In this document: one piece after another, positions 10,978 through 64,000 of the stretch
Position numbering within the stretch: the stretch's first letter is position 1
How the letters are laid out: each line of letters opens with the position of its first letter
NCBI GenBank assembly: GCA_014650475.1
Contig: BMVA01000023.1
Coordinates: forward strand, 46,079-110,078
Reading direction: 5' to 3'
Source of the DNA: Streptomyces albogriseolus
Lineage (GTDB): Bacteria > Actinomycetota > Actinomycetes > Streptomycetales > Streptomycetaceae
Length of the DNA: 64,000 nt
Notes under the pieces: generated by a model
Seen by the model: only the letters and a program-made list of their open reading frames with translations
Databases searched by the model: none
Told to the model about the DNA's origin: nothing
Translations under genes and position numbers: made by a program

Positions 10978-11039
10978 CCCCTTTTGGTCCCTGTGTGTTT
11001 CCCTGCCTGGAACAGACATCGTGAAAGGGGCGGGCGGTC

Positions 11040-50261: not shown

Positions 50262-51104
50262 TCAGAGCAGGGCGAGAGCGCGTGCGGGGTCCGGGACCAG
50301 GACGGCGCGCTGCTCGGCGAGCAGTCGGGCGCTGCCGTCGGCGCGGACGTCCTCGGCGGCAGGCGGGCAGAGCAGGGGGCGGTTCAGGGCGGTGGCGGCC
50401 TCGGCGGTGCGCATTGCCGCCTCGGCGTGGTCCAGGGCCTCGATGAGGATCACCGTGCGCGTGAGCGCGGCGAGCAGGACGGAGGTAGCTTTGAGCGTGG
50501 CGCCGCTGGGCGCGGTGCCCGGCCGGTAGAGGCTGAGTACGGCGCCGCCGTTGGCGGGGATGGAACCCAGCAGCTGGGCGTGGTCGTGCGGATGGGCGCG
50601 GTCCAGGCCGCAGGGCAGGACTGCGAGCGTTGCCCGTCCGGCCAGGGCGGCAGCCCGGTGGGCTGCCGAGTCCACGCCGTACGCGAGTGTCGCGGTGACT
50701 GTGTGACCGGCCTCGGCGACGGCGGTGGCGAAGGCGGCCGCATGGGCCAGGGCCTGCACGGTCGCGTTGCGGTTGCCGGTCACCGCGACGGCGCGGGCGG
50801 TGAGCTGCGGGAGCCGGTCCCCTCCCCGGGCCCACAGACCGAGCGGGCAGTCGGGCCCGAGGTCGGCCAGGGCGGCGGGCCAGACCTCGTCCGAGGGGAT
50901 GATGAACTGGCAGGTCAGTTGTGCGTTGCCGAGTTCGCCAGCGGGCTTGTACCGGGCCAGGCGCCCGCTGTTGTCGTTGCGGACACGCCGCTCCCACACC
51001 TCCTCGGCGCTGAACGTGGCTAGGTCGGCGGCGAGTTGCGCGGGAGTGAAGTGCTCGGCGAGCGCGGCACGGGCGGCGCGTTCGGGCAGGGCGGGGCAGG
51101 GCAT
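50262..51104 (-). CDS. DprA/Smf-like DNA-binding protein
   Basis: The 280-residue protein has a Rossmann-type core as in DprA/Smf: ARAVAVTGNRNATVQALAHA, TVTATLAYGVDSAAHRAALA-like VDSAAHRAAALAGRATLAV, and LPCGLDRAHPHDHAQLL. Chromosomal DprA loads RecA on single-stranded DNA during uptake; plasmid copies may protect or process entering strands. GGAGG precedes the ATG. It lies 76 bp downstream of ssb, and the two may act on single-stranded DNA together. Confidence 0.78.
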   Translation of the reverse strand: MPCPALPERAARAALAEHFTPAQLAADLATFSAEEVWERRVRNDNSGRLARYKPAGELGNAQLTCQFIIPSDEVWPAALADLGPDCPLGLWARGGDRLPQLTARAVAVTGNRNATVQALAHAAAFATAVAEAGHTVTATLAYGVDSAAHRAAALAGRATLAVLPCGLDRAHPHDHAQLLGSIPANGGAVLSLYRPGTAPSGATLKATSVLLAALTRTVILIEALDHAEAAMRTAEAATALNRPLLCPPAAEDVRADGSARLLAEQRAVLVPDPARALALL

Positions 51105-51180
51105 GGTGAACCTCCGTGAGGGGGCGCCGGCGGGCATGCCGCCGACGCCGTGCGGAGCGGTGAGCTGGGGGTGAGTGCGG

Positions 51181-51723
51181 TCAGCGCGCGGTGCGGCTGG
51201 GCGCGGCGGGGGCGTCCCAGGTCGTGCGGGGCGCGGACCGCCACCAGTCAGTCGCGGCGGCCGGGACCGGGGCCGGTCGGGCTGCCGGGGCGGGACGGCT
51301 CGGTCGGGCCCGGTGAGCGGCTGGCGCCTGGGGCGCGGCCGTCGGGCGCGGGGTCGAAGCGGGAGCGCGTCCGGCGAGGACGGCGGGCAGGGTGTCGTCG
51401 ATGTAGGCGACGTGGTGGGCGAGATCCACACCGACCTGAGCGGAGTCGAGGTAGAGCACGTTGTCGCGCAGGGCCACGTTCCCGGTGGCGATCACGTGCA
51501 CGGCGTCGGTGAGGCACTCGGCGACGTGCCGGGCGAGCGGGCCGGTGACCGTGCAGATCACGGGGACCGGCTCCCCGTCGCGCCACTGGCGCTGGGCGTA
51601 GTCGTACTCGCGCGGGATCTGTACCACGGTGAAGCGGGCCGCTGGGGTGCCGCGTTCGGTGTGGCGCAGCTGCACGGTTCCGTACACGCGGCCGCGGATG
51701 ACGGCGGTCGTCTCTCCATTCAT
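51181..51723 (-). CDS. ssb: Single-stranded DNA-binding protein
   Basis: The 180-residue protein has an OB-fold of the SSB type (VYGTVQLRHTERGTPAARFT, then VTGPLARHVAECLTDAVHVI and GNVALRDNVLYLDSAQVGVD), followed by a Pro/Ala-rich tail. The tail ends in SRTAR and lacks the acidic DDDIPF-like tip used by canonical SSB to recruit partners. GAGGAG precedes the ATG. Promoter-like TATTAT sequence lies about 63 bp upstream. Confidence 0.87.
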   Translation of the reverse strand: MNGETTAVIRGRVYGTVQLRHTERGTPAARFTVVQIPREYDYAQRQWRDGEPVPVICTVTGPLARHVAECLTDAVHVIATGNVALRDNVLYLDSAQVGVDLAHHVAYIDDTLPAVLAGRAPASTPRPTAAPQAPAAHRARPSRPAPAARPAPVPAAATDWWRSAPRTTWDAPAAPSRTAR

Positions 51724-51785
51724 GCGGGGCGCTCCTCGATGTGACGAACGTGAGCCGGTGCCCGGAAGCCATCCGAACAAGTTCC

Positions 51786-51813
51786 ATAATACGTGAAACG
51801 GTGCGGGTGTCAT
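51786..51813 (-). promoter_or_regulatory. Promoter P1 upstream of ssb
   Basis: On the reverse strand ATGACA (-35) is followed after 16 bp by TATTAT (-10) and GGAAC. It shares the TATTATGGAAC block with four other sites but lacks the inverted repeat of P2-P4. Confidence 0.5.
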
Positions 51814-51892
51814 CCCCTTTTTCCCAACCGGGTGGGAGCACCCGCCCCTGCGGGGCCGGCCGCAGTCACGACCGCGCCCGCTCTGCCCGGTG

Positions 51893-52777
51893 CTACGCGG
51901 CGCGCTGTTCCTCTGGCGGCCGGGCCTCGTGGCAGGGCCCCGGACCCTCGCAGCAGCCGGCTGTCTCCGGGACAACCCCCCGCCGCTCGCCGCCGCCGGG
52001 CCTGGTGGCGCGCCGGGCGAGCCGCCCGAGGCGGGCCCTCCAGCCGGTCGGCGTCGGCGCCGGCGACGTAGGGGGACTGGTGAACACCGTGGCGTCCTCG
52101 ACGTCCACCTGCACCGGGACCGTGCCGTCGGCCAGGAGTACCTGCTCGTCGGTGGTGTCCAGGTGGACGGAGACCCGCACGGCCCTGGTGTCGGCGTCGA
52201 GGTAGGCGAACACGAGGACCCCGGCGATCTCGATGCAGGGCAGGCCCTCGTCGTCGGTCCCCTCCATCGGGTGGAAGACCGCAGCGCTGTTGGCCTCCGC
52301 GCAGGCCTGGCCGTCCGAGAGGCTCAGGCGGCGGGTTGAGGCCCCGTGGCGGAGGACGTCGTACGCGCGCAGCGTGTAGTCCTCGTCGCACCGATCCTCT
52401 ACAGGGCCGTAGTAGACGTCGACAGCCGTCCGGTCGTCGGCGGGAGGAAGAAGGGGCACGCCGTCGGTGCCTGCCACGTTGTCCCAGCAGCTGCGCACGT
52501 GCTGCGCCAGTGAGGCCAGCGCGGAGGCCTCGTCGGACCAGAGCGTCACCTCCTCGCTGCGCCGGTCCCACCGGCGCAGCACCCACGCCCGGCCGGCCCG
52601 CTGCGCCGTGAGGGCGGTGGGGACGGCGAAGCTGAAGCGGCTCAGCCAGCCGCTGAGGATGTCGGCGGTCTCCGCGCCCGGCCATTCGCCGGTGCGGGCC
52701 TGGAGGACGTCCATCAGTGTGGCCAGATCGATGATGGCCGCGCCTGCGGGCGTGGCCGGGTCTGGTGTGATCAGCAC
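51893..52777 (-). CDS. Hypothetical plasmid-type protein
   Basis: The 294-residue soluble protein has a central region with WVLRRWDRRSEEVTLWSDEA and a C-terminal basic stretch followed by CCEGPGPCHEARPPEEQ. No known domain is recognised. The GTG start has AAGGAG upstream. It lies upstream of ssb on the same strand, with P1 between them. Confidence 0.6.
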   Translation of the reverse strand: MLITPDPATPAGAAIIDLATLMDVLQARTGEWPGAETADILSGWLSRFSFAVPTALTAQRAGRAWVLRRWDRRSEEVTLWSDEASALASLAQHVRSCWDNVAGTDGVPLLPPADDRTAVDVYYGPVEDRCDEDYTLRAYDVLRHGASTRRLSLSDGQACAEANSAAVFHPMEGTDDEGLPCIEIAGVLVFAYLDADTRAVRVSVHLDTTDEQVLLADGTVPVQVDVEDATVFTSPPTSPAPTPTGWRARLGRLARRATRPGGGERRGVVPETAGCCEGPGPCHEARPPEEQRAA

Positions 52778-52828
52778 GGCGGGCTCCTTTACATGCGGTG
52801 TGCGGGGGGAGAGGGACAAGGAAGGTGG

Positions 52829-53338
52829 TCAGGACCCGTTCATGAGGGCGTTCCACAGGTCCATCAGGTGCTGCTGGCCGGGAGTGAGCGCCGCTGCGCG
52901 CAGCACGCGTGTGCGCAGGACGGGCACGTCGACGCTGATGCCGGCGGGCGCATCGGGCCTGCCGGGCGGGTGGACGAGACGGTAGGTCCGCGTGCGGATC
53001 ATCCAGGCCTCGTACCGGTCGGCGGGGCTGCCGCTGCGCGCGGTGTGGCCTTCGTCGGGGGAGCTGGAGGGGCACGGGCAGGACGGGTCGGTGCACGGGC
53101 GTCCGGCCGGGTGGCCGGCCAGGACCGGGCGGCGGTAGTGCGTCGCGGTGCCGTTGAGCATGGGGCAGTGCGCGGCGGTGTACGGCAGGCACTCGGGGTG
53201 GAGTGCCGGTTCGGGGGAACAGCCCTGGACGACGTCGGCCGGACGGACGATCAGGTAGCACCGCTCGTCCAGGGGCTGGCCGCAGATCTGGCACAGGCGC
53301 CGCAGGCGGCATGGCCGCCGTGGACCAGGGACACCCAC
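52829..53338 (-). CDS. Hypothetical Cys-rich (zinc ribbon-like) protein
   Basis: The 169-residue protein has CQICGQPLDERC near the N-terminus, HPECLPYTAAHC and CTDPSCPC, which suggest one or two zinc-binding knuckles. The rest is helical. The start is uncertain: the GTG used lacks a good site, while an ATG at 53397 with GGGAGAA upstream lies in another frame that stops after 45 codons. A frameshift between them is possible. Confidence 0.5.
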   Translation of the reverse strand: MGVPGPRRPCRLRRLCQICGQPLDERCYLIVRPADVVQGCSPEPALHPECLPYTAAHCPMLNGTATHYRRPVLAGHPAGRPCTDPSCPCPSSSPDEGHTARSGSPADRYEAWMIRTRTYRLVHPPGRPDAPAGISVDVPVLRTRVLRAAALTPGQQHLMDLWNALMNGS

Positions 53339-53512
53339 GGCACGACCAGACCGCCCGCCAGCGGCCGGCGCGCACAGCGTTGGGGTATCGAGTGCATCTG
53401 TCTTCTCCCTCGGATCGCGGGTGGGACAACTAGGCCTCAGTTGCTGGAGGGTGGCGGCCGTCCCGCCCCGCCCGCCGGACAGGGCGGGACGGGCGGGACG
53501 GCCAGGGGGCGG

Positions 53513-54109
53513 TCAGCCGTGTGGTGTGGTCGCCTCTGCCGCGGCGGATCCGGCTGCCGGGCGGGGCCATTGCCAGTCGCCGTGGTGGAGGTCCGTCCAG
53601 CGGCACGCGCCGTCCGGGTTCCACTGCACGCGCACGGGCCCCCAGCCGCCGACCGGGTCGGTGCGGCGGATTGCCGCCGGGCTGCCGAGGAGGTGGGTAC
53701 GCCGCAGGTTGCTGCCGTCCAGTTGCGGAGCCTGGCCGAGTTGGTCCAGGGCCTGTAGCACGTCGGCGAGCAGTGCCCAGAGCTGGTCGGGGTCCTGGGG
53801 CAGATTGCGGATGCGCTGGTTGGAGGTGACGATCCGTCGGGCGGCCTCGTCGCCGCGGCGGTACCAGATGCCGCCGCCTGGCACCGCCCGCACGGCGGTG
53901 CTCAGCTCCTTCACGTCCGGCCTGGCCGGTTCTCCGGGACGGGTGAGGATGCGGAACGTCTCACCCATCCCCAGGTAGTACGCGGCTTCGTGCGCCGGCT
54001 TCAGCGGGCCGTTGCCCTGGTCGGCGGGTGACGGCTCTGGCAGGGGCGCACCGCTCATGTCGCTGGCGTACGTTCGGGCGGCTGCAACGGCGCCTGGGGA
54101 GATGACCAT
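53513..54109 (-). CDS. Hypothetical protein
   Basis: The 198-residue soluble protein has a helical middle (PQDPDQLWALLADVLQALDQ) and a C-terminal part with VGGWGPVRVQWNPDGACRWTD. No family is recognised. AGAGG lies upstream of the ATG. It is one of a run of leftward unknown genes spaced by 80-140 bp. Confidence 0.55.
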   Translation of the reverse strand: MVISPGAVAAARTYASDMSGAPLPEPSPADQGNGPLKPAHEAAYYLGMGETFRILTRPGEPARPDVKELSTAVRAVPGGGIWYRRGDEAARRIVTSNQRIRNLPQDPDQLWALLADVLQALDQLGQAPQLDGSNLRRTHLLGSPAAIRRTDPVGGWGPVRVQWNPDGACRWTDLHHGDWQWPRPAAGSAAAEATTPHG

Positions 54110-54246
54110 GGGTGCCTCTGCTTTCTCAAGGGCTGACGGGGGAGTGGCCGTGCTCTGACGGCTGGCATCGCCGGGCTCGAATCGGCGGCCTGTCGGCGCG
54201 GTCCCCTGGGGGCAGCACAGCCTGCTGCCCCCAGGGGCCGGTGTTC

Positions 54247-54621
54247 TCAGGAGTCGGCCGGGTCGGTGAGCTCGATGCAGGCGGCCGGGACCTTGGCGAG
54301 CCGGTACCGCTTCTCGCCGTCGGCGACGCGGAAGCGGGTGTTGCTCGGGTCGCGGCGCAGCCGCTCGGTGGAGGCTTCGTCCAGCAGGAAGTCGAAGCGG
54401 CTGCGCGTGCGGTTGGGCTGCTGGACGGTGCCGGTCAGCAGGCGCAGGCACGCCGGGGTGATCGTCGTGCCGATCCGGGCGGTGCGGCCGGGAGTGATGA
54501 CCGGGCGCTTGGCGGCGTCCAGCTGGATCAGGCGGTTGGTGGCGGCCTCCTGGAGAGCGGCCACGGAGACGACGTCGGGCAGCTCGCTGATGAAGGCGCG
54601 GACCTCGGCAAGGGTGGGCAT
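54247..54621 (-). CDS. Hypothetical protein
   Basis: The 124-residue protein opens MPTLAEVRAFISELPDVVSV and contains AALQEAATNRLIQLDAAKRP and FRVADGEKRYRLAKVPAACI, a mixed alpha/beta pattern. No known domain. AGAGG lies 8 nt before the ATG. Confidence 0.55.
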   Translation of the reverse strand: MPTLAEVRAFISELPDVVSVAALQEAATNRLIQLDAAKRPVITPGRTARIGTTITPACLRLLTGTVQQPNRTRSRFDFLLDEASTERLRRDPSNTRFRVADGEKRYRLAKVPAACIELTDPADS

Positions 54622-54746
54622 GGGTGTGTCCTCTCTCGGGTCTGTGGTGCGGGGGACCGGACGTGAGGCGCCCGGCGGGAACCGGCGCCACGGGTGGGCC
54701 GGGGCGGCGGGCACCGGCTGTGCGGTGCCCGCCGGGTGCACGGCGG

Positions 54747-55070
54747 TCAGCCGAGCGGGTAGAGCACCAGGGCGGCGCGGGCGTCGGCCGGAACCTTCGG
54801 GAACAGCGCGCGCAGCCCGGCGTCTGCCGCGAGTTCGCTCTCCAGCGGGTACACCTCACCAGTCAGCTCGTAGACGGGGGAGTACCGGCCGATCGCGTAG
54901 GTGCTGAACGGCGAGTAGAGGTTGCCCTCGGTGTCGCGGGAGAGCACGACCAGGGTGTCGCCCGGGAGACGGGCCCAGTCATTGCCGACCAGTCGCCGCA
55001 GCACATCCAGGGTGAGCGGCTGGTCGCCATCGACCGGCTGGGCGGGATCGGCGGTGCCGGACTTGTGCAT
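54747..55070 (-). CDS. Hypothetical protein downstream of the ParB-like gene
   Basis: The 107-residue protein contains PLTLDVLRRLVGNDWARLPG and LVVLSRDTEGNLYSPFSTY, which reads like a small beta-rich domain. GGAG lies 7 nt before the ATG. It follows the ParB-like gene by about 85 bp and may be co-transcribed. Family unknown. Confidence 0.55.
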   Translation of the reverse strand: MHKSGTADPAQPVDGDQPLTLDVLRRLVGNDWARLPGDTLVVLSRDTEGNLYSPFSTYAIGRYSPVYELTGEVYPLESELAADAGLRALFPKVPADARAALVLYPLG

Positions 55071-55154
55071 GACGGACTCCAAGCGGGTCTCGCTCGTGCG
55101 TGGGTGGGGGGCCGGGCACGTGGTGCCCGGCCGTGGGGTGATGTCCGGGGCGGC

Positions 55155-56702
55155 TCAGGCGGCGGAATCGTCCCCCGGGGCCTCGCCCCGGTGCGCGGCG
55201 ACGGCCTGTTCCTCGACCTCGGACAGCCGGTAACTGCCCTTGTCGTCCTGGCCGAGCTTTTCCAGCAGCAGCAGGTAGGAGGCCTGTTCGGGGGTGGGGT
55301 TCTCCCACAGGAAGCTGACCTGCATGCGGGCGGCGTTCCAGCCCTTCGGGTCACGCATGTCGCGCTCGAAGGCGGCGGCGACGTGCGCGAACAGCACGTG
55401 GGCCATGCGGGCCTTGGACAGGGTCGCTAGCTCCGACAGCCGCACCCGCTCGAAAGGGCTGTCGGGCAGCTTCACGCCCAGCAACTGGGCGACGTCCTCG
55501 GCCTCCTGCCGCTGCGCCCACTTGCCGTAGAAGGAGGGGAGGTCCAGCAGCACGGTCAGGGCGAACCGCCAGGCTTCCTCCGGCAGGGCCTTGCTGCCGC
55601 GCACCAGCCGGGCAACGAACTCCTTGCGGGGCCCGGCGGCAGCCTTCCAGGCCCGGTTGCAGGCGGTGATGCGTGCCCGCTCGGCGGCCTTCTCCTCGTC
55701 CTCGGGCGTCTTGACCGGCTTCGGCTTCGGGCGCACCTTGTGACCGTGCGCGGCTGGGTCGGCGCAGTACCAGATGGGCTGGTGCTCGTCGTCGAGCCGG
55801 GCGCTGTGGCCGGGGCAGCCCTTGTGCCCGTTCTCGTCCAGCGGGTTGCCCAGCGGCGTGGTCAGCTCCGACAGCGGCCGGGCGGTGTCCTTCTCCCCGT
55901 ACGGGCGGTGCGTGGGCAGCAGGGGCACGCCCGCCTTCTCCAGAGCCGCGACGGCCTTCCTGCGGGCGTTCAGGTCGTCCTGTTCGGCCTTGAGCAGCGC
56001 GAGCTCCTGGTCCCAGTGGCCGCGCCCGCCGCCCTCCTCCGCCTCGTCCCGGGCCAGTGCCCGCAGGAGACGGTCCTGCGCGCGGGGCACGTCCTCGACC
56101 TCGGCGAGCTGCGAGAGCTGTTCGAGGTCCATGCCCCCGGCGGAGGCCCGGCGCAGCGTGGCGTCATCGAGCTGCTGCGCACGGCCCAGCCGCTTGCCGG
56201 TGCCGCGCTTGAGGCCCAGGGCCCGCGCGGCCTGCTTCTGCTCTACCTCGTCCATCCCGATCAGCGACAGTTCGGCGGCCTTGAGAGTGTCCTTGGGGGA
56301 CATGCCCTGCCGCTGGTGGTTCTCGATCAGGGACAGGAACCGCGTCCAGGCGTCCCGGCCGACCAGATCCGCGCGCACGTACGCCTTGATCTGCCGCCTG
56401 GGGTGGCCCTCCGCCTCGGCGGCGGCGTTGGCGATCTGCGCGGCCTGGGTGCGCCGCCAGCCCTTGAACGCGCCGTAGGTGCCGTCCGGGCGGGGGCGGA
56501 CGCTGACCGGGTCCTGGACGCCCACGGCCTTGACGGAGTTGATCAGGTCGGTGTCGGGCTCGGTGTCCGTCTCGCGGGCGTTGCACTCGTCGCGCGTGAT
56601 CGCGTCCGGGTCGAGCAGGACTGCGGTGAGGCTCGTCTCGTCGGCGTCGACCGGGGCGGTCTCGGCCGTCTCGGCGGTGGGGGACTCGGTGACTGTGGCC
56701 AT
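55155..56702 (-). CDS. ParB/sulfiredoxin-fold (ParB-like) protein
   Basis: The 515-residue protein has an N-terminal ParB-like domain (about residues 28-115) with INSVKAVGVQDPVSVRPRP and the GAFKGWRRTQAAQIA box, in the place of the usual GERRW motif. A helix-turn-helix region follows (GMSPKDTLKAAELSL, ARALGLKRGTGKRLG). The C-terminal 250 residues are unknown, with a Cys/His pair (GCPGHSAR, WYCADPAAHGH). It may act in plasmid partition or as a CTP-dependent regulator. AAGGAGG precedes the ATG; promoter P2 lies upstream. Confidence 0.8.
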   Translation of the reverse strand: MATVTESPTAETAETAPVDADETSLTAVLLDPDAITRDECNARETDTEPDTDLINSVKAVGVQDPVSVRPRPDGTYGAFKGWRRTQAAQIANAAAEAEGHPRRQIKAYVRADLVGRDAWTRFLSLIENHQRQGMSPKDTLKAAELSLIGMDEVEQKQAARALGLKRGTGKRLGRAQQLDDATLRRASAGGMDLEQLSQLAEVEDVPRAQDRLLRALARDEAEEGGGRGHWDQELALLKAEQDDLNARRKAVAALEKAGVPLLPTHRPYGEKDTARPLSELTTPLGNPLDENGHKGCPGHSARLDDEHQPIWYCADPAAHGHKVRPKPKPVKTPEDEEKAAERARITACNRAWKAAAGPRKEFVARLVRGSKALPEEAWRFALTVLLDLPSFYGKWAQRQEAEDVAQLLGVKLPDSPFERVRLSELATLSKARMAHVLFAHVAAAFERDMRDPKGWNAARMQVSFLWENPTPEQASYLLLLEKLGQDDKGSYRLSEVEEQAVAAHRGEAPGDDSAA

Positions 56703-56774
56703 GTCTGGCCTCCTTGTGCTGGGTTGACGGACTTTCAGCGGTGTCGGGAGGGCGCCACCCTCTCGACGTGTTCC

Positions 56775-56827
56775 ATAATACTTCACTTTGAGGGTGGGGC
56801 AACTGAATTGCTCGACGCTGCCTCGCT
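56775..56827 (-). promoter_or_regulatory. Promoter P2 with operator, upstream of the ParB-like gene
   Basis: Reverse strand: TTGCCC (56797-56802), 16-bp spacer, TATTAT (56775-56780), then GGAAC. The TGCCCCACC operator arm overlaps the -35 (56793-56801); a weak second arm (6 of 9 bases) lies at 56819-56827. Distance to the start codon is about 70 bp. Confidence 0.65.
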
Positions 56828-56842
56828 GGTTGGAAGTGCAGG

Positions 56843-57025
56843 TCAGGAAGCCTTGCGGCGCCGCGCCGCATGTACGGAGCAGGCGTATACGGCGCGGCTT
56901 CCGCCCCGGAGGCGAGGGATGGTGGTCACCTGCTCGGTGCAGGGTAGGCCGCAGTCGACGCATCTGCGGTCGGTATCGGCCGTGAGGGCCGGCGGGAGCG
57001 GCGGGGGCATGGCGGGTCGGGGCAT
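56843..57025 (-). CDS. 60-residue zinc-knuckle microprotein
   Basis: The small protein has CVDCGLPCTEQV and a later Cys/His (YACSVHAARR) that together form a plausible zinc site. The N-terminus is Pro-rich. GAGAGG precedes the ATG, and promoter P3 lies about 110 bp upstream, so this is a real expressed unit despite its size. Function unknown. Confidence 0.55.
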   Translation of the reverse strand: MPRPAMPPPLPPALTADTDRRCVDCGLPCTEQVTTIPRLRGGSRAVYACSVHAARRRKAS

Positions 57026-57133
57026 GGCGGGACCTCTCTCATGGCCGGGAATGGGGGTCTGGGTGGGGCCAGCCGTCTGTGCGGAGTTGCCGTCGGCGGC
57101 TCCGGCGTGGGGGCATCAGGCGTAGCGAGTTTC

Positions 57134-57186
57134 ATAATACCTACTGCTGGCGGTGGGGCAACGGGTTTTCCTGGCGCTACCCCACC
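57134..57186 (-). promoter_or_regulatory. Promoter P3 with operator, upstream of the zinc microprotein
   Basis: Reverse strand: TTGCCC (57156-57161), 16-bp spacer, TATTAT (57134-57139), then GAAAC. Operator arms lie at 57152-57160 and 57178-57186 (8 of 9 paired) with a 17-bp spacer. The upstream arm sits just before the -35. Confidence 0.7.
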
Positions 57187-57208
57187 GTCGACGGCTACGG
57201 ACCGGCGG

Positions 57209-57697
57209 TCAGGTGCTGATGCGGGTGACTGCGCGGGTGGGGAGGTGGACGCGCAGGATGTCCCCGTGGTCGGGCGGGTCCAGTACCGCGAGCCGGTTGA
57301 GCGCCGCGGTCAGTTCGGGGTCGGCGAAGACCTCTTCCGCCAGCGCGGCTTCCCCGACAGGCACGGCGGTCACCGTGGTCCGGGTGGGCCGGAGATCCGG
57401 AATGGCCTCGGTGTCCGAGAGGGCGGCGACGAAGGGACTCCAGCCCAGGCGCATGCCGTCGGCTGCGCGCCGTTCCGTGGTGGTGAAGTAGGCGGCCACT
57501 GCCGGGCGTCCGTCCCCGGGCTGCCCGGCCGCGAATGCCTTGACCCGGCTCACCAGCACCTGCCGCCACGCCTCCGGTGGCCGCCAGTGCCGCGATGACC
57601 AGCGCGTCCAGTTCCCTGGGGCGAGTTCACGCAGCGCCTCCCGGACTGGATGCTCGGTCGGGGCGGTCAGTAGTTCGGCAAGTTCCAAAGGCCTCAT
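57209..57697 (-). CDS. Hypothetical protein
   Basis: The 162-residue soluble protein has PLELAELLTAPTEHPVREAL at the start, a Trp-rich stretch (NWTRWSSRHWRPPEAW) and a beta-rich C-terminus. No family is recognised. It ends 22 bp before the operator of P3. The ATG has no strong ribosome binding site. Confidence 0.5.
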   Translation of the reverse strand: MRPLELAELLTAPTEHPVREALRELAPGNWTRWSSRHWRPPEAWRQVLVSRVKAFAAGQPGDGRPAVAAYFTTTERRAADGMRLGWSPFVAALSDTEAIPDLRPTRTTVTAVPVGEAALAEEVFADPELTAALNRLAVLDPPDHGDILRVHLPTRAVTRIST

Positions 57698-57738
57698 GGG
57701 CGTTGTCCTGTTCGGTCGGAGGGAGGGGGCCGGCGCTG

Positions 57739-57985
57739 TCAGTCGCGAGACAGCGGCGTGTGTGCGGAGAAGACGTAGTGACCGAGCTCGCGCAGTGCGC
57801 CGGCGGTGCGGTCCACGGCCTCGGAGCTGTGATCGGTCGGGCGGGTGTAGGCCTCGATGTCGCTGTTCCAGGTGAACCCCTGGGCAGTGAGCGTCTCTTC
57901 GGTGCCGGGGGTGAGGTCTTCGGGGGAGCGGGGGGGGGGGGGCGGCCACCAGGCCGTGGATTGGGTCGGGCGTGACCAGGAACAC
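57739..57985 (-). pseudogene. Small hypothetical gene split by a 13-G tract
   Basis: A GTG with AAAGGAG upstream starts VFLVTPDPIHGLVAAPPP. The downstream half (SPEDLTPGTEETLTAQGFTW, ending FSAHTPLSRD) is in another frame. The two frames meet at a run of 13 G (57930-57942), where loss or gain of one base would restore an approximately 80-residue protein. The shift may be a sequencing error, decay or true slippage. Confidence 0.5.
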
Positions 57986-58053
57986 CGGAAGCTCCTTTCA
58001 GTGCGGGCCACCCCGGTGGCGGGCGGCCCGCAGGCTGGTGGGGATGGGATGGG

Positions 58054-58316
58054 TCAGTGGGCGACGGTGACGGTGTAGTCGGCCTCCAGGACGGCGAGGG
58101 CGGCACGGATGGCGGCGCGGGTCTCCGGGCTCGGGGCCGAGTACGGGAAGTCGTCCAGGGCGCGCACGGCGTCGTCCAGGTGGTCGTCTGGCATCGGCAG
58201 CACGTGGCGAACGCTTCGCGGGCGGTGGGCGGCAGTGCCGCGATTCCGGCCGTGAAGCGGCGGGCGGGGATACGCAGGCGGGCCGGTCGCAGGGCACGGC
58301 GCAGCGCTCGCAGCAT
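58054..58316 (-). pseudogene. Small hypothetical gene with a one-base frameshift
   Basis: The ATG has GAGGAG upstream and starts MLRALRRALRPARLRI up to PPTAREAF. The next frame continues RHVLPMPDDHLDDAVRALDD and ends EADYTVTVAH. One extra C near 58205 would join them into a protein of about 87 residues. Family unknown. Confidence 0.5.
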
Positions 58317-58325
58317 GGCAACTCC

Positions 58326-58511
58326 TCAGAACTCGGGTCGGGCAGGCGACGTGAACGATTGGGTGGTGTGGCGCTCGGCGTCGGCGCGGGCGTCTTCGGC
58401 GGTGTATCCGGTGTCGCACCACGCCCGGCAGAGCTGGCCGGGCGGCGCGCCGCAGGTCTCGCAGCGCTCGTCGAAGTCCTCGGGACGGAACGGCGGCGGT
58501 GGGCTGCTCAT
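58326..58511 (-). CDS. 61-residue Cys-rich microprotein
   Basis: The protein contains CETCGAPPGQLCRAWCDTG, four Cys residues spaced like a zinc ribbon, then a helical AEDARADAERHT tail. Its ATG overlaps the stop of the upstream gene (ATGA), so it is translated together with it. Similar small proteins are common on actinobacterial plasmids and phages; function unknown. Confidence 0.55.
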   Translation of the reverse strand: MSSPPPPFRPEDFDERCETCGAPPGQLCRAWCDTGYTAEDARADAERHTTQSFTSPARPEF

Positions 58512-58798
58512 GCCGCGTCCCTGATGTGCTCCGCTACCTGGCGGGCGGACAGGACGGGGGTGGTGGTCATCAGAGCGGGGCAGCTGGTCTGCCAGATCTG
58601 CCTCGGGGCGGAGGGGGAGATCTGGAAGCTCGTGGCGGGGCTGATCCGCCATGTGCGGCCGTGGGAGTCGGTGACGGTGTAGGTCAGGAACTGGGGGGCG
58701 CCTTGCTGGCCGTTGTCGCTCCAGGTGAGGCCGGCGGCGGTGAGGGCACGGCCGAGCTGGGCGCAGCGTTCCGGTGTGGCGTGGCTGAACGTGGCCAC
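58508..58798 (-). CDS. Hypothetical protein
   Basis: The 96-residue protein opens VATFSHATPERCAQLGRALT and contains APQFLTYTVTDSHGRTWRI, a small alpha/beta pattern. The GTG is preferred because AGGAGGAG lies just upstream of it, inside a longer open frame. Coupled to the Cys-rich microprotein. Confidence 0.5.
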   Translation of the reverse strand: MATFSHATPERCAQLGRALTAAGLTWSDNGQQGAPQFLTYTVTDSHGRTWRISPATSFQISPSAPRQIWQTSCPALMTTTPVLSARQVAEHIRDAA

Positions 58799-58878
58799 GA
58801 GGTATCTCCTCCTGCTCAAGGGCATGCGAGGGCGGGCGCCGGGGCGGCTCGTCGCCCCGGCGCGGAGGCCACGGAGGC

Positions 58879-59709
58879 CTAGCGGCGGGTGAGATCGTTA
58901 CGGACACGCTCGCTGTCAGTGAGGCCGCGACGGCGCTGGCGAATCTGCTGGTTCCGCAGGCCGGCGGCCTCGGTCTCGGCGCGGCGGGCCTGGTCGTGTT
59001 CGCGACTGGCGGCGGTCAGGCAGTAGGGGGCCAGCCACTGCATGACGGAGACGTGGCGGGACAGTGAGCCGGGATAGTCGGCCAGCATCACCAGCAGCAC
59101 CGGGTGCGGGGAGGCGGTGAACCAGCGTGCAACGGTCCACCAGGCGGCCACGGCTGCGCGCCGGGCGGGGTGGGCGGCCCGGGCCTCCGCTTCGAGGCGC
59201 GCGGCTTCGGCCTGGTGGTGGGTGACCGACCAGTCCAGGAAGCGCAGCAGGGCGGGGGTGTCGCGCTCGCGGGAGGCGGTGAGGATGGCGGGCAGGTCCT
59301 CGCGCTGCATGACGTGCTCGGCGCAGGCACGCAGGACGGCGGTGAGCGTCGCGGCCGTCTTCGGGGACGGCTCGTGCCCGGCGGCGGTCTCCATCGGATA
59401 GACCGACACTTCGGGGCGGCCGACGACGTCGGTGTGCAGCCTCAGGCTTCCCCGGTAGCCGCTGCTGCCGCGGGCGAGGCGGGGCAGTGCGTCGTCGGGG
59501 GCGGTCGTCTGGTAGGCGTTGACGGGGCCGAGACAGGCGCGGACGGCGGTGAACCGGTCCCAGTGCTGGGGGTGGTGCGTGCCGGTGACGTGCACGCTGC
59601 CGCGCATCGCGCCGCCCAGCTCGAACACGACGGCGTCACCCCGGCGGAGGCCGGCGGTCGCGTGCACGGTGCCTGCGGGGGTCGCGACGGTCAGGCTGTC
59701 ACGGTTCAT
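58879..59709 (-). CDS. Hypothetical protein
   Basis: The 276-residue protein has an N-terminal beta region (TVATPAGTVHATAGLRRGD) and an extended helical C-terminal half rich in Ala/Arg (RLEAEARAAHPARRAAVAAW, ending in a basic RQRRRGLTDSERVRND). No family is recognised. GGAGG lies 8 nt before the ATG. Confidence 0.6.
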   Translation of the reverse strand: MNRDSLTVATPAGTVHATAGLRRGDAVVFELGGAMRGSVHVTGTHHPQHWDRFTAVRACLGPVNAYQTTAPDDALPRLARGSSGYRGSLRLHTDVVGRPEVSVYPMETAAGHEPSPKTAATLTAVLRACAEHVMQREDLPAILTASRERDTPALLRFLDWSVTHHQAEAARLEAEARAAHPARRAAVAAWWTVARWFTASPHPVLLVMLADYPGSLSRHVSVMQWLAPYCLTAASREHDQARRAETEAAGLRNQQIRQRRRGLTDSERVRNDLTRR

Positions 59710-59861
59710 GGACGGTGCCTCCTGGGCGTTCGCAGCGGTGGCTTTCGGCAGTGGGTCCCGGCAGGTGCCGGGGGCCGGTGGGGGAAGGCTCGGGGCCGGT
59801 GGCCGCTCGGGGCCGGTGCCGTCACCCGAGGCGACGGCACCGGCGTGCTTGCGGGTCTCGC

Positions 59862-60275
59862 CTAGCTCTCTGCCAGGAAGCGCGAAAGCTCCAGATCGAG
59901 GTTGAGGTGACCGCCTTCCGTGCCGGGCGGCACCGCGGCGTCCGTGCGCCGCAGGAAGGACTCCAGGACCTTCGCCGGGGCGTGGAGCAGGGCTTCACCC
60001 TCCTCGGACGCCAGGGCGATGCACACGACGTCCATGCCGTGACTGCGAGACGGCCAGATCTGGACGTCACCGATCCCGGTGGGGCGGTGGAGACCTTCGG
60101 CGAGAGACTCGCGGGCGAACACCCAGTCCACGGTGTCCTCGTCTCCGGTGTGGAAGGCAGCCTGCACGGCGTACGGGTCGGCCGTGTCGTAGCGCAGGCT
60201 CGCCGGGATAGGCAGGGAAGACTCACTCGACACAACGAGGCGCACGTGCAGCTCGCAAGTGACCGTGCTGTTCAT
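59862..60275 (-). CDS. SsgA-like (SALP) sporulation/cell-division protein
   Basis: The 137-residue protein matches the SsgA/SsgB family of sporulating actinomycetes: SLPIPASLRYDTADPYAVQA, FARESLAEGLHRPTG, IWPSRSHGMDVVCIALAS and ESFLRRTDAAVPPGTE. Members guide septum placement and peptidoglycan work during sporulation. Accessory copies occur on plasmids. ATG or a GTG two codons upstream is possible. Neighbours give no cell-division context. Confidence 0.9.
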   Translation of the reverse strand: MNSTVTCELHVRLVVSSESSLPIPASLRYDTADPYAVQAAFHTGDEDTVDWVFARESLAEGLHRPTGIGDVQIWPSRSHGMDVVCIALASEEGEALLHAPAKVLESFLRRTDAAVPPGTEGGHLNLDLELSRFLAES

Positions 60276-60329
60276 GAGCACCAGGGCCTTTCGCTCAGTG
60301 TGCGTTGCAGGTGAGAGACGGGCGCGGCC

Positions 60330-60797
60330 TCAGTGGCCGTGGGGCTGGTCCAGGACCGGGGCGCTGTAGACCTCCCGGCGCACGTTCGGAAGACCAGGGC
60401 AGGGACGGACGGCCAACTCAAGCTCGGCCGTGTCCATGGGGCGCAGCCATCCGTCCCGTACCGTCCACGCGCAGGCCCGGGGGGTGGGCTCGGCGGCCGT
60501 GCTGGCGACCAGGACGGCGCGGCGGACGGTGCTGCCCTCCAGCGCGAAAGTGATCAGCGTGTACAGCGTGCCGAACTCCGTCTCGTCCAGTACGGCCAGC
60601 CGTTCGGGGCCGATGCCGACGGACACGTCGGCGTGGCCACTGACCAAACCGTCGTTGGTCTGCTCGACGGCGAGATTCAGGGTGTGCTCACCGGTGCCGA
60701 GAGCTTCGAACACGGCGGCGAGTGCGGAGACGGTGCGGCGCGCGGCGGCCGCAATGGCGGCGTCATCGGGGCGGACGAGTTCCGGGCGTGCGGGCAT
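60330..60797 (-). CDS. Hypothetical protein
   Basis: The 155-residue protein has a helical N-terminus (DDAAIAAAARRTVSALAAVF) and a beta-rich remainder (HTLNLAVEQTNDGLVSGHAD). No family is recognised. GGAG precedes the ATG by 9 nt. It ends just before the SsgA-like gene and its upstream side faces the hairpin cluster. Confidence 0.55.
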   Translation of the reverse strand: MPARPELVRPDDAAIAAAARRTVSALAAVFEALGTGEHTLNLAVEQTNDGLVSGHADVSVGIGPERLAVLDETEFGTLYTLITFALEGSTVRRAVLVASTAAEPTPRACAWTVRDGWLRPMDTAELELAVRPCPGLPNVRREVYSAPVLDQPHGH

Positions 60798-60848
60798 AGG
60801 TCGTCTCTCCTCAGCGGAAACGATGGGGGGCGTTGCTCTCTCCCCCCC

Positions 60849-61040
60849 CCCCGCGCAGCGGGGTCCTCCGGGCTGCGCCCGGAGCAGTGGGCGGCTCGCT
60901 GCGCGAGCCGGTGGGGGTGCCCCCTGCGCTGCGCTCCGGGGGCGGCTGGGCGGTCTGCTGCGCAGCCGCCTGGCGGCGGGGCGGGCGCGCTGCGCGCTCC
61001 CTCTCGGGTGGGGCGCTGCGCGCTCGGCAGGCGCCGGAGT
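60849..61040. repeat. Cluster of GC-rich hairpins with GCA/TGC triloops
   Basis: At least five adjoining short palindromes share the same triloop: CCCCGC-GCA-GCGGGG, CTCCGGGC-TGC-GCCCGGAG, GGCTCGC-TGC-GCGAGCC, then imperfect ones around CTGC-TGC-GCAG and GCGC-TGC-GCGC. On one strand each presents a C-GNA-G type loop. No gene is supported inside. Confidence 0.65.
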
Positions 61041-61112
61041 GGGGCGTTGGTGGGGCCGGACGGGCGCCCCGCGAGGGGGAGGGGATGGGGCGCCCGTCCG
61101 GCGGTCAGGGGG

Positions 61113-62117
61113 TCAGACCGTGGTGAGGGCGAATGCCTTCTCCATCAGGTCGTTGGCGGCGCCGCTGATGACCCGCTCGGCGCGGGCGGCTGCCTTCTCG
61201 GTGTCGGTCTTGCCCTGGGCGGGGGCGACGTGGTTCGCGTACTCGGTCAGGGCGTTGTATCCGGCCCACCGCGTGCCCCGGACCCCGGCCTGAGTGTCGG
61301 CGTGCTCGAACAGGTTGGAGATCGCTCCCCAGCGCTGCCGCTGGTTGGTCTTCTTCCGGGGGCTGTCGCTGTCCTTGACCGGCCAGAGCTGATCAACCAC
61401 CGACTTCAGCTCCCCGAGCGTCATCTCGGCTTCGATCATCCGCTGGGCGGCCTGCTCGAACTCCTCGGCGTAGCGGAACGTCAGACCCAGGGCGTCACGG
61501 GCCTGCGCGATGCGGGCCTTGGCTCCAGCGGTGTGCCGGACCACGAAGCTGGAGCGGGCGCCGTGGAGGGCGGCGCGCATGGTGTTCGCGCACACCACCC
61601 GGACGGGGGTCACCACGATGCGGAAAGCGCTGCCCCCGTCGTGGCTGTTGAAAGCCGCGATGTAGAGATCAACGTCGTCGCTTCCGCCGATCGTGAGGGT
61701 CTGCGGCATCTTCATGGTGAGGAACACCTGACGGCCGTTCTTGAGCGAACCGGCGGTCTCGAAGTGGGCGCCGGACTCGTCGGCCAGCAGGTTCAGAAAC
61801 TCGGCGTGCTCCTCGTTCTGAACCGGGTGGTAGTCGCTGCCGACCACTCCCAGCGTCTCCGTGCGGCCGGTCTTCGGGTGCGTCCGCGCGGTCGCGAAGT
61901 GCTGCGCCACCTCGACGGGCGTGGTGCCGTCGGCGGTGATCTCGGTTGCGGTCAGGGGCAGGAGCCGGACGTTCCAGCCGGACAGGGAGGCGATACGCAT
62001 CGCTTCCTCGGCGGTCATCGCGCCGTCGGTGACGGTGCCCAGCTTGTGCCAGGCGCTCGTGTTGGCGGAGGCGAAAGCGGCGGTGCCGTCGGTGAACTGC
62101 TCGATCTCGTGAGCCAC
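61113..62117 (-). CDS. DUF932 (phage/plasmid-like, TIGR03299-type) protein
   Basis: The 334-residue protein matches the phage/plasmid DUF932 family: TSAWHKLGTVTDG near the start, VVGSDYHPVQNEEHAEFLN, and VVTPVRVVCANTMRAALHGA. Family members occur on mobile elements and their role is unclear. The GTG has GGAAGG upstream, and promoter P4 with a perfect operator lies about 70 bp upstream, so it is probably highly expressed. Confidence 0.85.
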   Translation of the reverse strand: MAHEIEQFTDGTAAFASANTSAWHKLGTVTDGAMTAEEAMRIASLSGWNVRLLPLTATEITADGTTPVEVAQHFATARTHPKTGRTETLGVVGSDYHPVQNEEHAEFLNLLADESGAHFETAGSLKNGRQVFLTMKMPQTLTIGGSDDVDLYIAAFNSHDGGSAFRIVVTPVRVVCANTMRAALHGARSSFVVRHTAGAKARIAQARDALGLTFRYAEEFEQAAQRMIEAEMTLGELKSVVDQLWPVKDSDSPRKKTNQRQRWGAISNLFEHADTQAGVRGTRWAGYNALTEYANHVAPAQGKTDTEKAAARAERVISGAANDLMEKAFALTTV

Positions 62118-62185
62118 TGGGGCTTCCTTCCTGATGACGAACTTTGGCGGGTCCGGTAGGGGGCCAACCCTTCCGAACTGGTTCC

Positions 62186-62239
62186 ATAATACCTAGCCCG
62201 GGTGGTGGGGCAACCGATTAAAACTCCAGCTGCCCCACC
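62186..62239 (-). promoter_or_regulatory. Promoter P4 with perfect operator, upstream of the DUF932 gene
   Basis: Reverse strand: TTGCCC (62208-62213), 16-bp spacer, TATTAT (62186-62191), then GGAAC. Operator arms GGTGGGGCA (62204-62212) and TGCCCCACC (62231-62239) are perfectly paired with an 18-bp spacer. Confidence 0.7.
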
Positions 62240-62272
62240 GGGCCGGAAAGGCCGGCCGTCAGGCTCCGGTGC

Positions 62273-62776
62273 TCACAGGGTGCTCCTCTGCCAGTACTGG
62301 GGCAGCGCCGTGATGCTCTCGACGTGGACCCCGGACAGGGCGGTGACGAACACCCCGCCCCGGTACTCGCTCAGGCGGTACAGCACGTACTCACGCCCCC
62401 AGCGGCTGAACTGGCGCTCGATCCCCGTGACCCAGTAACGCCCCCATGCGCGCTGATGCGTACCGTGGTAGCTGACCAACTGGCCGATACCGGGGCCGCT
62501 GTCCTGGCTCCTGGCGGCCAGGCTCGCCAGTGCCTCACTGAACGTCTCGGGCGGCAACGGCACACCGGCCAGCGCGGGCCCGGTGTGGCCGGTACGGACA
62601 CCGGAGATCCATCCGACCTCGAACAGAGCGCGGGCCCGCTCGCGCACGGCGTGCGACAGACCGGTGTTGGGGGGAAGCTGCTCCAGGGCTGCCTGGAACG
62701 CGGCCTCCATCTGCTCGCTCTCGCTCTCGCTCGGCGGCTCGGCGCGGTGGGTGGGCTCGATGTTCGTCATGCTCAC
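62273..62776 (-). CDS. Hypothetical protein
   Basis: The 167-residue soluble protein has an acidic N-terminus (PPSESESEQMEAAFQ), a helical middle (HAVRERARALFEVGWISG) and a C-terminal beta part (RYWVTGIERQFSRWGREYVL). No family is recognised. The GTG with AAGGG upstream is preferred over the ATG two codons later. Confidence 0.55.
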   Translation of the reverse strand: MSMTNIEPTHRAEPPSESESEQMEAAFQAALEQLPPNTGLSHAVRERARALFEVGWISGVRTGHTGPALAGVPLPPETFSEALASLAARSQDSGPGIGQLVSYHGTHQRAWGRYWVTGIERQFSRWGREYVLYRLSEYRGGVFVTALSGVHVESITALPQYWQRSTL

Positions 62777-62856
62777 GGTGGCTGTCCCTTCGGGTGATGT
62801 GAGTGCTGGGCCGGTGCTCCGGGGGCCCAGCGAGCCGGGCCCCCGGAGATTGCCTG

Positions 62857-63204
62857 TTACTTCAGCCCACGTGTCCGCAGGAATTCACTGATGCGGTAGG
62901 CGACAGCTCGCACGGGAAGGGACGCGCCCCGGAAAGTCCCGAGAATTCGGGGGCCGGTTTCGCTGTCGTGGATGATGTGGAACTCAAACCCGTCAGCGAC
63001 GGGAAGAACAACCCGAATGGGACCGGCCGCGGTGTCGAATCGAATCGACGTCGTGTTCTCGTCCTGGTTGTGTTCGATGACGGCATCCCGCAGCAGTTCC
63101 GGGCGAGGCAGGAAGTTCGCGATCCCGCGCGCCTTCTGGGCCTGGGGGGTGTTGATCTCGGCCGTACCGGAGGTCACCTTGCCTGCGCTGATGACGATTT
63201 CCAC
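62857..63204 (-). CDS. Hypothetical protein behind promoter P5
   Basis: The 115-residue protein opens VEIVISAGKVTSGTAEINTP and contains TSIRFDTAAGPIRVVLPVAD, a small beta-rich domain, and a helical end (VRAVAYRISEFLRTRGLK). GTG is chosen for its AAAGG site and its position 68 bp after the P5 -10 element. Family unknown. Confidence 0.5.
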   Translation of the reverse strand: MEIVISAGKVTSGTAEINTPQAQKARGIANFLPRPELLRDAVIEHNQDENTTSIRFDTAAGPIRVVLPVADGFEFHIIHDSETGPRILGTFRGASLPVRAVAYRISEFLRTRGLK

Positions 63205-63271
63205 GTTGGGCCTTTCTGTTGACGAACGTTCGGTGATGCCGGTAGGGGAGCCACCCCGTCCGACATGTTCC

Positions 63272-63299
63272 ATAATACAGCACCGAAGATCTGCTGCAC
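63272..63299 (-). promoter_or_regulatory. Promoter P5 of the last leftward gene
   Basis: Reverse strand TATTAT followed by GGAAC as in P1-P4. The -35 position holds GTGCAG, which is part of the CTGCAC repeat series, so a different regulator may act here. Confidence 0.45.
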
Positions 63300-63347
63300 C
63301 ATCCCACGCGCAAACTCCTGCACAATCTCCTGCACCAACTCCTGCAC
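63294..63347. repeat. Phased CTGCAC repeats
   Basis: CTGCAC occurs at 63294, 63318, 63330 and 63342, that is at 24, 12 and 12 bp steps. The last three lie in near-identical 12-bp units (AACTCCTGCACA-like). This could be an iteron-type protein site upstream of P5; on the reverse strand it would also encode a short VQEIVQEF-like repeat, which is considered less likely. Confidence 0.45.
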
Positions 63348-63364
63348 CTGCCTGGCGGCCAGCC

Positions 63365-63746
63365 TCCGATCACTGCTGGTCAGAAGGACGATTGGCCATG
63401 GTCGGGGAGCTGACATCCCCTCTGCTGCCACTTGTCCCCGCACGGTTGAAGGATGAGTGAGGCGGGCGGGCGCGGTGCGAGCGGCGGCCTCGGGGATCGG
63501 GCGGCCTGGATTCTGCTTGCGCGTCGGCCGGAGCCGCCGCGCTGGGAGTGGGGGAACGGGGCCCAATTCGGGCCCTGGACGGGGCAGAAAAGCCCGGGGC
63601 TTTAGCCCGGAGTAGGGCGCCTTCATCCTTTGGCGATCCTGCTGTGTTGGTCTTCTCCTGCGTAGCGGGGGCGCATGCTGGTGCCAGAGTCAATCGGGTT
63701 TGCACTTTGAAGCGAGGGAGTGCCCCGTTCCTGCCAAAGCTACATG
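63365..63746. other. Gene-free stretch
   Basis: No gene is supported. One short hairpin of the AAAGCCC-G-GGGCTTT type lies near 63588-63602. Frames here are low-complexity. Confidence 0.3.
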
Positions 63747-63764
63747 CTGCATCACCTGATGCAG
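63747..63764. promoter_or_regulatory. Perfect 18-bp palindrome
   Basis: CTGCATCA-CC-TGATGCAG has perfect 8-bp arms and a 2-bp centre. Size and symmetry fit a dimeric repressor site (GntR/Kor-like or LexA-unlike). Confidence 0.4.
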
Positions 63765-63798
63765 AGTCACCGACCCCAGCCATCCCCCTCTTGCTGCT

Positions 63799-63987
63799 CG
63801 GGCCGTAGGCCCGTTGGCCGACCCGCGCAGCGGGTCCGGCCCTTGGGGGTGCGCAGCGGCCCGGTGGCTGGAGCGCAGCGGAGGCCACCCTCAGGGCCGT
63901 AGGCCCCGCAGCTCCGGGAGCGCAGCGGACGGAGCGTCACCCGCCTTGCTCCGCAAGGCGGGTGGACTGCCCCGCGTAGCGGGGCAG
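63799..63987. repeat. Telomere-like cluster of triloop hairpins
   Basis: Seven adjoining palindromes, several perfect: CGGGCC-GTA-GGCCCG (63799-63813), GACCCGC-GCA-GCGGGTC (63820-63836), GGGCC-GTA-GGCCC, CACCCGCCTTGC-TCC-GCAAGGCGGGTG (63938-63964) and CTGCCCCGC-GTA-GCGGGGCAG (63967-63987), with two imperfect ones between. C-GNA-G triloops of this kind are known from Streptomyces telomere palindromes. Whether this is near a replicon end cannot be seen. Confidence 0.6.
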
Positions 63988-64000
63988 CAGCGCTCACGCG

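Follow-up and report, generated by a model that had tools for sequence, protein, structure and literature searches.

Five promoter-like units near the end of the contig

The window analyzed here, 64,000 nucleotides from Streptomyces albogriseolus, comes from a contig of 110,078 bp (BMVA01000023.1) and runs to its end, at window position 64000. The outer part of the window is a block of minus-strand genes (49300-64000) lying beside a telomere, and within it five units share the -10 hexamer TATTAT and transcribe away from the telomere. We describe these units as members of a telomere-anchored, inward-pointing family of promoter-like elements, present in several copies per replicon, with plasmid-private sequence flanking the -10 and leaders that are prone to form hairpins.

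All five units and the genes behind them are on the minus strand. Promoter 1 (-10 at 51786-51791, core GTATTATGGAAC at 51781-51792, and a -35, ATGACA, read from the sequence at 51808-51813) precedes a gene for an SSB-like protein of 180 aa (51181-51723), which matches the Pfam SSB family below the cut-off. P2 (-10 at 56775-56780, -35 TTGCCC at 56797-56802, core GTATTATGGAAC) stands before a gene for a ParB-like protein of 515 aa (55155-56702), P3 (-10 at 57134-57139, -35 TTGCCC at 57156-57161, core GTATTATGAAAC) before a 60-aa CxxC microprotein that is conserved in relatives (56843-57025), and P4 (-10 at 62186-62191, -35 TTGCCC at 62208-62213, core GTATTATGGAAC) before a gene for a DUF932 / TIGR03299 protein (61113-62117). 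P5, the telomere-most unit (-10 at 63272-63277), precedes the outermost gene of the block, a 115-aa open reading frame (ORF) that we call gene1 (62857-63204), and has neither a clear -35 nor an inverted repeat of the P2-P4 type.

An initial annotation had already described P2, P3 and P4 as sharing TTGCCC, a 16-bp spacer and TATTAT on the minus strand, followed by GGAAC, GAAAC and GGAAC. We find exactly this arrangement, and the gene calls agree with the three genes that it placed downstream. The other two members, at 51786 before the ssb-like gene and at 63272 before the 115-aa ORF, are additions to that account; both are without TTGCCC and without the GGTGGGGCA/TGCCCCACC repeat discussed below, but they carry the 12-mer GTATTATGRAAC, which is common to all five. 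A unit measures about 120 bp and has promoter-like hexamers. A -35-like hexamer lies 16 bp upstream of the -10 in four of the five, and across plasmids such hexamers (TTGCCC, TTCACA, ATGACA etc.) are commonly 16 bp from TATTAT. Bare TATTAT occurs five times in the 64 kb, always on the minus strand, where 0.30 copies are expected.

The family is confined to the block. With up to one mismatch, GTATTATGRAAC has five matches in the 8.07-Mb genome, all in the block and on one strand, and a reversed control has one. A search of the whole genome for TTGCCC-N16-TATTATG with up to two mismatches gave three exact sites and five sites with two mismatches; these five are at chance level because the control also gives five. 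The initial annotation had proposed a private regulon and had named a motif scattered over the genome as the result that would speak against it; searched genome-wide, the motif is not scattered, and the confinement supports a private regulon.

The block (window 49300-64000) corresponds to positions 213-15037 of the linear plasmid NZ_CP109216.1 at 99.2% identity, in three joined pieces. By inspection, the last bases of the window lie amid GC-rich palindromes, as at several other linear plasmid ends, and we take these palindromes to resemble archetypal Streptomyces telomeres. The first ~140 bases of NZ_CP109216.1 (L067 among our loci) are presumably nanopore adapter rather than telomere. Because of the identity to a plasmid end and the terminal palindromes, we conclude that the block adjoins a telomere and stops at most about 0.2 kb short of the NZ_CP109216.1 end.

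Recurrence at the ends of related replicons

Exact copies of GTATTATGRAAC were found in 9 of 392 genomes of the genus (the source genome included), making 35 sites in same-strand clusters. In five of the nine the first site is 0.7-3.4 kb from the start of a contig, and in two genomes the 12-mer faces inward from both arms of a single chromosome-sized contig (in G301, 28 kb from each end). For the wider comparison we used a general pattern (GGTT-N2-C-N17-TATTAT) with at most one mismatch. Searched without mismatches in 199 genomes, this pattern has 16 sites in seven of them, and 14 of the 16 fall in the block studied here and in clusters in four further genomes. In one of these four a cluster lies at both ends of a 9.64-Mb chromosome-sized contig. 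The sites in G149 and G191 look like chance. The core is thus nearly confined to terminal clusters outside its own genome as well.

We then examined 16 plasmid records, of which 15 are labelled linear and one (NZ_CP086103.1) circular. The general pattern has 56 sites in 12 of these whole records, with 2-9 per replicon (the one-mismatch sites include the -10 variants TAATAT, TAGTAT and CATTAT, and one or more of them are shifted matches), and the reversed pattern has two. All 56 point inward. Within 24 kb of an end lie 55 of them; the 56th, at 41.5 kb of NZ_CP109471.1, is just upstream of that plasmid's ssb homologue. The sites are at one end only in 11 of the 12 plasmids, NZ_CP108236.1 being the only one with sites at both. 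When 13 plasmid ends were scanned, three of them without a site, TATTAT pointed inward 49 times and outward never. Bare TATTAT has 82 sites in the 12 positive plasmids (3.9 Mb), with 67 within 25 kb of an end, all inward, and 15 elsewhere; these plasmids were preselected as positive, and a reversed control is meaningless for a word that reads the same backwards.

The genes recur together with the promoters. In 11 of the 16 records the order from the end is at least one small ORF, DUF932 and, later, a ParB-like gene, with an annotated SSB in 10 of these 11. Genes for DprA, a methylase or PAPS reductase follow in some related plasmids, and the genes point inward with few exceptions. ParB-like homologues in 32 plasmid records lie within 20 kb of the record end in 25 cases, 24 of them inward, one of the 24 being on a record labelled circular. 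For SSB homologues (E<=1e-12 in 16 records) the best place is inward in 16 of 16 and within 23 kb of an end in 15. TATTAT stands within 120 bases upstream of homologous starts for gene1 in 21 of 22 loci, DUF932 in 21 of 23, ParB in 15 of 19 and SSB in 13 of 18, counts that are partly circular since many loci were fetched by the motif. Of one set of 32 stretches, 11 came from unrelated taxa and looked like chance; they were dropped from later comparisons and kept in scans of all loci. Identical sequences were removed from promoter comparisons.

The block also reaches beyond records named Streptomyces: JODU01000027.1 (L040 and L051), labelled Kitasatospora aureofaciens, has near-identical promoters and genes.

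Sequence around the -10

Across nine lineages, the six bases before the -10 have an identity of 0.73 within and 0.38 between plasmids, and the five bases after it 0.65 within and 0.40 between; at the -35 the values are 0.58 and 0.53. The label-shuffle test of this comparison used nine representatives of the 13 ends, avoiding near-duplicates and leaving out L079, which has one site (it was left out of the co-variation tests as well). The upstream flank gave 0.759 against 0.410 in shuffles (z 17.8) and the downstream flank 0.585 against 0.414 (z 9.3), and none of the 300 label shuffles reached the observed value in any region. Because identity of the flanks within plasmids far exceeds that between plasmids, the constant -10 is embedded in sequence particular to each plasmid. 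The strongest replicon-specific signal sits there, and not in the inverted repeat.

We compared flank similarity with the similarity of five block proteins. The 8-taxon and the 9-11-taxon tests overlap in taxa and are not independent, and with five proteins and two regions the p values are uncorrected. With 9-11 taxa, flank similarity tracks SSB (rho 0.81, p 0.0005), gene1 (rho 0.72, p 0.0005) and gene2 (rho 0.54, p 0.0025), with lower values for DUF932 (rho 0.25, p 0.047) and none for ParB (rho 0.00). Partial correlations with the flank are 0.39 for gene1 and 0.51 for SSB, each given the other. Since flank similarity follows gene1 and SSB and does not follow ParB, the co-variation points towards gene1 or SSB as the putative reader of the flanks and away from the ParB-like protein, which we do not favor in that role.

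Inverted repeat at the -35

The initial annotation had treated a 9-bp inverted repeat over the edge of the -35 as the operator of the regulon. Its arms match as described: 9/9 with a gap of 18 at P4 (62204-62239, 34 nt past gene2), 8/9 with a gap of 17 at P3 (57152-57186, 23 nt past the ORF upstream) and 6/9 with a gap of 17 at P2 (56793-56827, 16 nt past the microprotein gene upstream). A search with gap 17 and up to three mismatches finds only P2 and P3, where 0.19 matches are expected in shuffles (P4, with its gap of 18, is outside this pattern). The single arm GGTGGGGCA is not enriched at up to one mismatch, with 45 matches against 40 expected, a number that 20 of 100 shuffles reach.

The analysis does not support an operator role. 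The repeat is absent at two of the five members, for which reason we rejected it as the common element, and the telomere-most promoter is without it in four lineage-I plasmids. In these four, the fold z is -0.94 to 0.55 at the telomere-most promoter and -2.30 to -4.37 at the DUF932 promoters, and the hairpin of the ParB promoter is weak in three (z -0.50 to -1.55). Upstream of the ssb promoter lies a hairpin of another kind (z -1.97 in L067). In other lineages the arms stand on either side of the -35 and, by inspection, vary from promoter to promoter within a plasmid. Over all lineages, the mean hairpin z is -0.28 for 11 telomere-most promoters and -1.17 for 52 others (p 0.037), a difference that is strong only in lineage I. 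Taking this together with the position of the repeat 16, 23 and 34 nt after an upstream gene, we consider with moderate confidence that it is more likely a 3' hairpin or insulator of the upstream gene than an operator.

A GCAGGTCA-like element lies about 10 bp upstream of the -35 at many promoters of a second lineage group (L071, L073-L078 and L080), those of the first gene and of ssb not among them. It is possibly an activator site.

Leaders

The promoters are followed by a conserved leader, a feature that the initial annotation does not mention. The leaders of the window were judged by folding near-identical leaders of a relative. The P4 leader (62118-62185, minus strand like the others) has a predicted hairpin GTTCGG..CCGGAC, then GTTCGTCA and a ribosome site; the P2 leader (56703-56774) a hairpin GTCG-GAGGG..CCCTC-CGAC, then GTCCGTCA; and the P5 leader (63205-63271) a hairpin GTCGG..CCGGC, then GTTCGTCA. 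The leader of promoter 1 (51724-51785) has GTTCGTCA and a possible short hairpin, which in the relative is not clearly better than shuffles.

We folded 63 promoters of 13 ends, using 45 nt starting 6 nt after the -10. They fold better than shuffles (mean z -1.20, standard error 0.23; 27 of 63 at z <= -1), while two windows further downstream have a mean z of -0.03 and +0.16 (paired Wilcoxon p about 4e-6). Lineages other than that of the window give the strongest signal. By inspection, the stem sequence differs between lineages and genes and the pairing persists. A MAFFT/RNAalifold analysis of covariation in the leaders gave three weak pairs and no double changes, and is uninformative as the stems differ in length. 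Rfam gave two matches in 50-64 kb, both below the gathering score and neither at a leader.

Other genes of the block

Between gene1 and the DUF932 gene lies gene2 (167 aa, 62273-62776), whose position is conserved in most relatives. An SsgA-like protein is encoded at 59862-60281 and a DprA-like protein at 50262-51104, all three on the minus strand. In other lineages, conservation of the CxxC microprotein goes down to 49-53%, and NZ_CP109216.1 has no gene annotated at the corresponding place. The annotated start of gene1 is upstream of the promoter in L067-L069. Upstream of the gene1 promoter, at 63288-63352, there is a repeat with a 12-bp period, GTGCAGGAGNTN, which is found in many lineage-I relatives and not in L070 or L084.

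The ParB-like protein has no ParA partner in the block: we found no ParA among the 23 block proteins scanned with Pfam, and none is annotated in the corresponding block of NZ_CP109216.1. Because a parA-parB pair of that plasmid stands apart, at 98.6-100.8 kb, the telomeric protein is probably not its partition ParB. Transfer-type genes of NZ_CP109216.1 are at 36-60 kb, and two genes near its other end, of which one points inward and the other outward, carry a helicase-associated annotation. The same plasmid encodes a sigma-factor-like helix-turn-helix protein, a WhiB and an Lsr2 protein (106725-107540, 78793-79101 and 94831-95697, in L093), any of which could regulate the terminal promoters. 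A further candidate regulator is the 61-aa ORF at 58329-58511, with a weak match, below the cut-off, to the putative DNA-binding phage zinc finger PF24623 (E 0.0046).

A sequence search of the PDB with gene1 gave no significant match, and neither did a PADLOC scan of ten proteins. We discarded a phage origin: ParB has no match in phages, and the one match of the pattern in a viral contig is unrelated by inspection.

On its inner side the block has a sharp junction at 49300-49313, where the match to the linear plasmid end and a match to internal plasmid sequence overlap by 14 bp. Internal stretches of four other Streptomyces plasmids, with genes for copper, cation efflux and recombinases, match window 16001-49313 at 99.9-100% identity. 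Beside the junction stand three long genes (43.8-49.2 kb), two of which match tyrosine recombinase weakly. Because of the sharp junction beside these weakly recombinase-like genes, a recombinase-borne metal-resistance segment seems to have been inserted there.

Comparison with known systems

In plasmid p576 of Bacillus, establishment genes, the repressor gene among them, stand behind repeated copies of a strong promoter on which the repressor acts (PMC8708921). The EGeRS2/Reg576 system of p576 has in common with ours several copies of one promoter sequence per plasmid, before establishment-type genes, and here similar promoter regions stand before several operons, with five copies in the window and 2-9 per positive plasmid. 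The operators differ: in p576 they are TTATCCC dual motifs beside the promoter, whereas the private sequence of our units lies on both sides of the -10, and the units are tied to a telomere. The dual motif TTATCCCnnTTATCCC has one match at up to three mismatches, with 0.71 expected and 44 of 100 shuffles reaching it, and is thus not found beyond chance. The p576 repressor is a known ribbon-helix-helix protein encoded by one unit. In our block, Pfam scans of 23 proteins gave no ribbon-helix-helix match; gene1 tracks the flank, and its model is without a confident fold match. We found no long region of the EGeRS1 type (about 400-750 bp with many inverted repeats and no clear promoter); the units here are about 120 bp.

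In conjugative plasmids, ssb and orphan methylase genes are found co-oriented in the leading region (PMC11541004). Their Frpo/ssi islands resemble the block in having co-oriented SSB and methylase genes with shared promoters, in what is there the first-entering region. The promoters of those islands act as folded single strands and the regions have an oriT, whereas here the -10 is mostly unpaired, the replicon is linear with a telomere, and early expression in the recipient is predicted by analogy.

A third comparison is with ttrA. Most Streptomyces replicons examined carry an inward ttrA near their ends, and ttrA is required for conjugation of SLP2, with a suggestion that its orientation matters (PMC8743542). 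The block is likewise telomere-adjacent and usually transcribed inward, with a putative link to conjugation. However, ttrA is a single helicase gene, whereas the block has several operons with shared promoters over 12-25 kb, and in NZ_CP109216.1 it lies at the end opposite the two helicase-associated genes.

The family would work like an establishment regulon, and on the tested features it does not belong to the known ones. Searches of open-licence papers, PMC8743542 and PMC13245405 among them, gave no earlier description of shared promoters at Streptomyces plasmid ends.

Proposed regulon and alternative explanations

We judge it somewhat probable that the five promoters form one replicon-private establishment ("leading-end") regulon, controlled by a plasmid-specific factor that reads the -10 flanks. 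Each unit, with TATTAT, private sequence on both sides and often a stem-loop near the expected mRNA 5' end, would be an active strong promoter, and the block would be the functional leading end of a linear conjugative element. In a resident cell the plasmid-encoded factor would hold the promoters down. On entry, a burst of genes that protect and settle the incoming DNA (ssb-like, ParB-like, DUF932, DprA-like and, in some relatives, methylases) would be expressed and then shut off by the plasmid factor; this sequence of burst and shut-off is inferred by analogy. The outermost gene, gene1, would be the first candidate for that factor.

A bolder version goes further than we would defend firmly, and we consider it doubtful as a whole: linear Streptomyces plasmids may be polarized, with one telomere entering the recipient first and carrying an establishment regulon whose plasmid-specific -10 code is read by a block-encoded factor (gene1, or the co-varying SSB-like protein, the latter on the melted -10 strand), giving each lineage its own specificity of zygotic induction and immunity.

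Several observations weigh against the establishment regulon or its proposed reader. As for location, one cluster (in G350) lies 2.6 Mb inside an 11-Mb contig, and the general pattern is absent from 4 of the 16 plasmid records (W06, W13, W15 and W16), which had been chosen for related ParB or DUF932. Of the seven ParB homologues more than 20 kb from an end, three point outward and four inward relative to the nearer end. DUF932 near record ends is outward in four records (H6, H7, H8 and H11), and one of these, scanned for promoters, had none of this type. Private sequence is not exclusive to the flanks, since other regions are also somewhat plasmid-specific (z 7.2 upstream of the -35, 5.7 in the spacer, 5.1 in the leader and 3.7 at the -35). 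The dyad symmetry of the -10 flanks is 0.462 against 0.470 in the control, which speaks against a simple dimeric operator, and with no signal in this test we rejected a palindromic operator on the -10. The co-variation, seen over 9-11 taxa, could be due to shared descent, and it fits SSB as well as it fits gene1. The Pfam scan of 23 proteins gave no DNA-binding regulator family above the cut-off besides the ParB-like and SSB-like proteins, and fold searches with an AlphaFold2 model of gene1 (predicted local distance difference test score, pLDDT, 76.5) gave no match at E<=0.001. Finally, the leaders of the window's own lineage fold weakly or no better than shuffles (z -1.60 to +0.68 in L067).

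The alternative that survives best, although we think it unlikely, is that there is no dedicated regulator. Strong constitutive promoters would have been duplicated and homogenized in each plasmid, the ends spread by telomere exchange, and the repeats would be terminator-like insulating hairpins. Hairpins at the 5' end can stabilize mRNA, which counts for this explanation, as do the distance of only 16-34 nt between upstream genes and the repeat and the weaker hairpins at telomere-most promoters. Telomere exchange between replicons has been described (PMC8743542). However, within a plasmid the spacer and leader show far less conservation than the -10 flanks, an outcome not predicted by plain duplication.

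A role of the block in replicating or maintaining the telomere (end-patching), instead of in establishment, is in our estimate quite unlikely. SSB-, ParB- and DprA-like proteins could act on telomeric single strands, and the block does adjoin telomere-like palindromes. Both telomeres need patching, though, and the sites are at only one end in all but one of the 12 plasmids; the methylase genes of some relatives also fit evasion of defence better.

The model of the initial annotation, in which the GGTGGGGCA/TGCCCCACC repeat over the -35 is the binding site of one dedicated repressor or activator, acting as a dimer, now appears improbable. The repeat is non-random in the window and recurs at the DUF932, microprotein and ParB promoters of lineage-I relatives, with strong hairpins at the lineage-I DUF932 and P3-type promoters (z -2.3 to -4.6). 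Against this stand its absence from two window members and from the telomere-most promoter of the four lineage-I plasmids, the weak ParB hairpin in three of them, arms that vary within one plasmid elsewhere, and a -35 that is far less replicon-specific than the -10 flanks.

We regard as very improbable an Frpo-like promoter formed when the incoming single strand folds, which the inverted repeats at the -35 and a conceivable telomere-end-first entry might suggest, because in the folded single strands none of the five sites has more than two of its six -10 bases paired, the energies equal those of shuffles (z -1.02 to 0.45), and no hairpin holding both -35 and -10 is seen.

To our knowledge, there is little understanding of the entry and settling of linear, protein-capped Streptomyces replicons. 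As an inward-pointing mark of one telomere, the promoter family names genes to test, and it predicts which plasmid end leads and that regulation would be plasmid-specific. It may also serve as a sequence marker of plasmid ends in draft assemblies.

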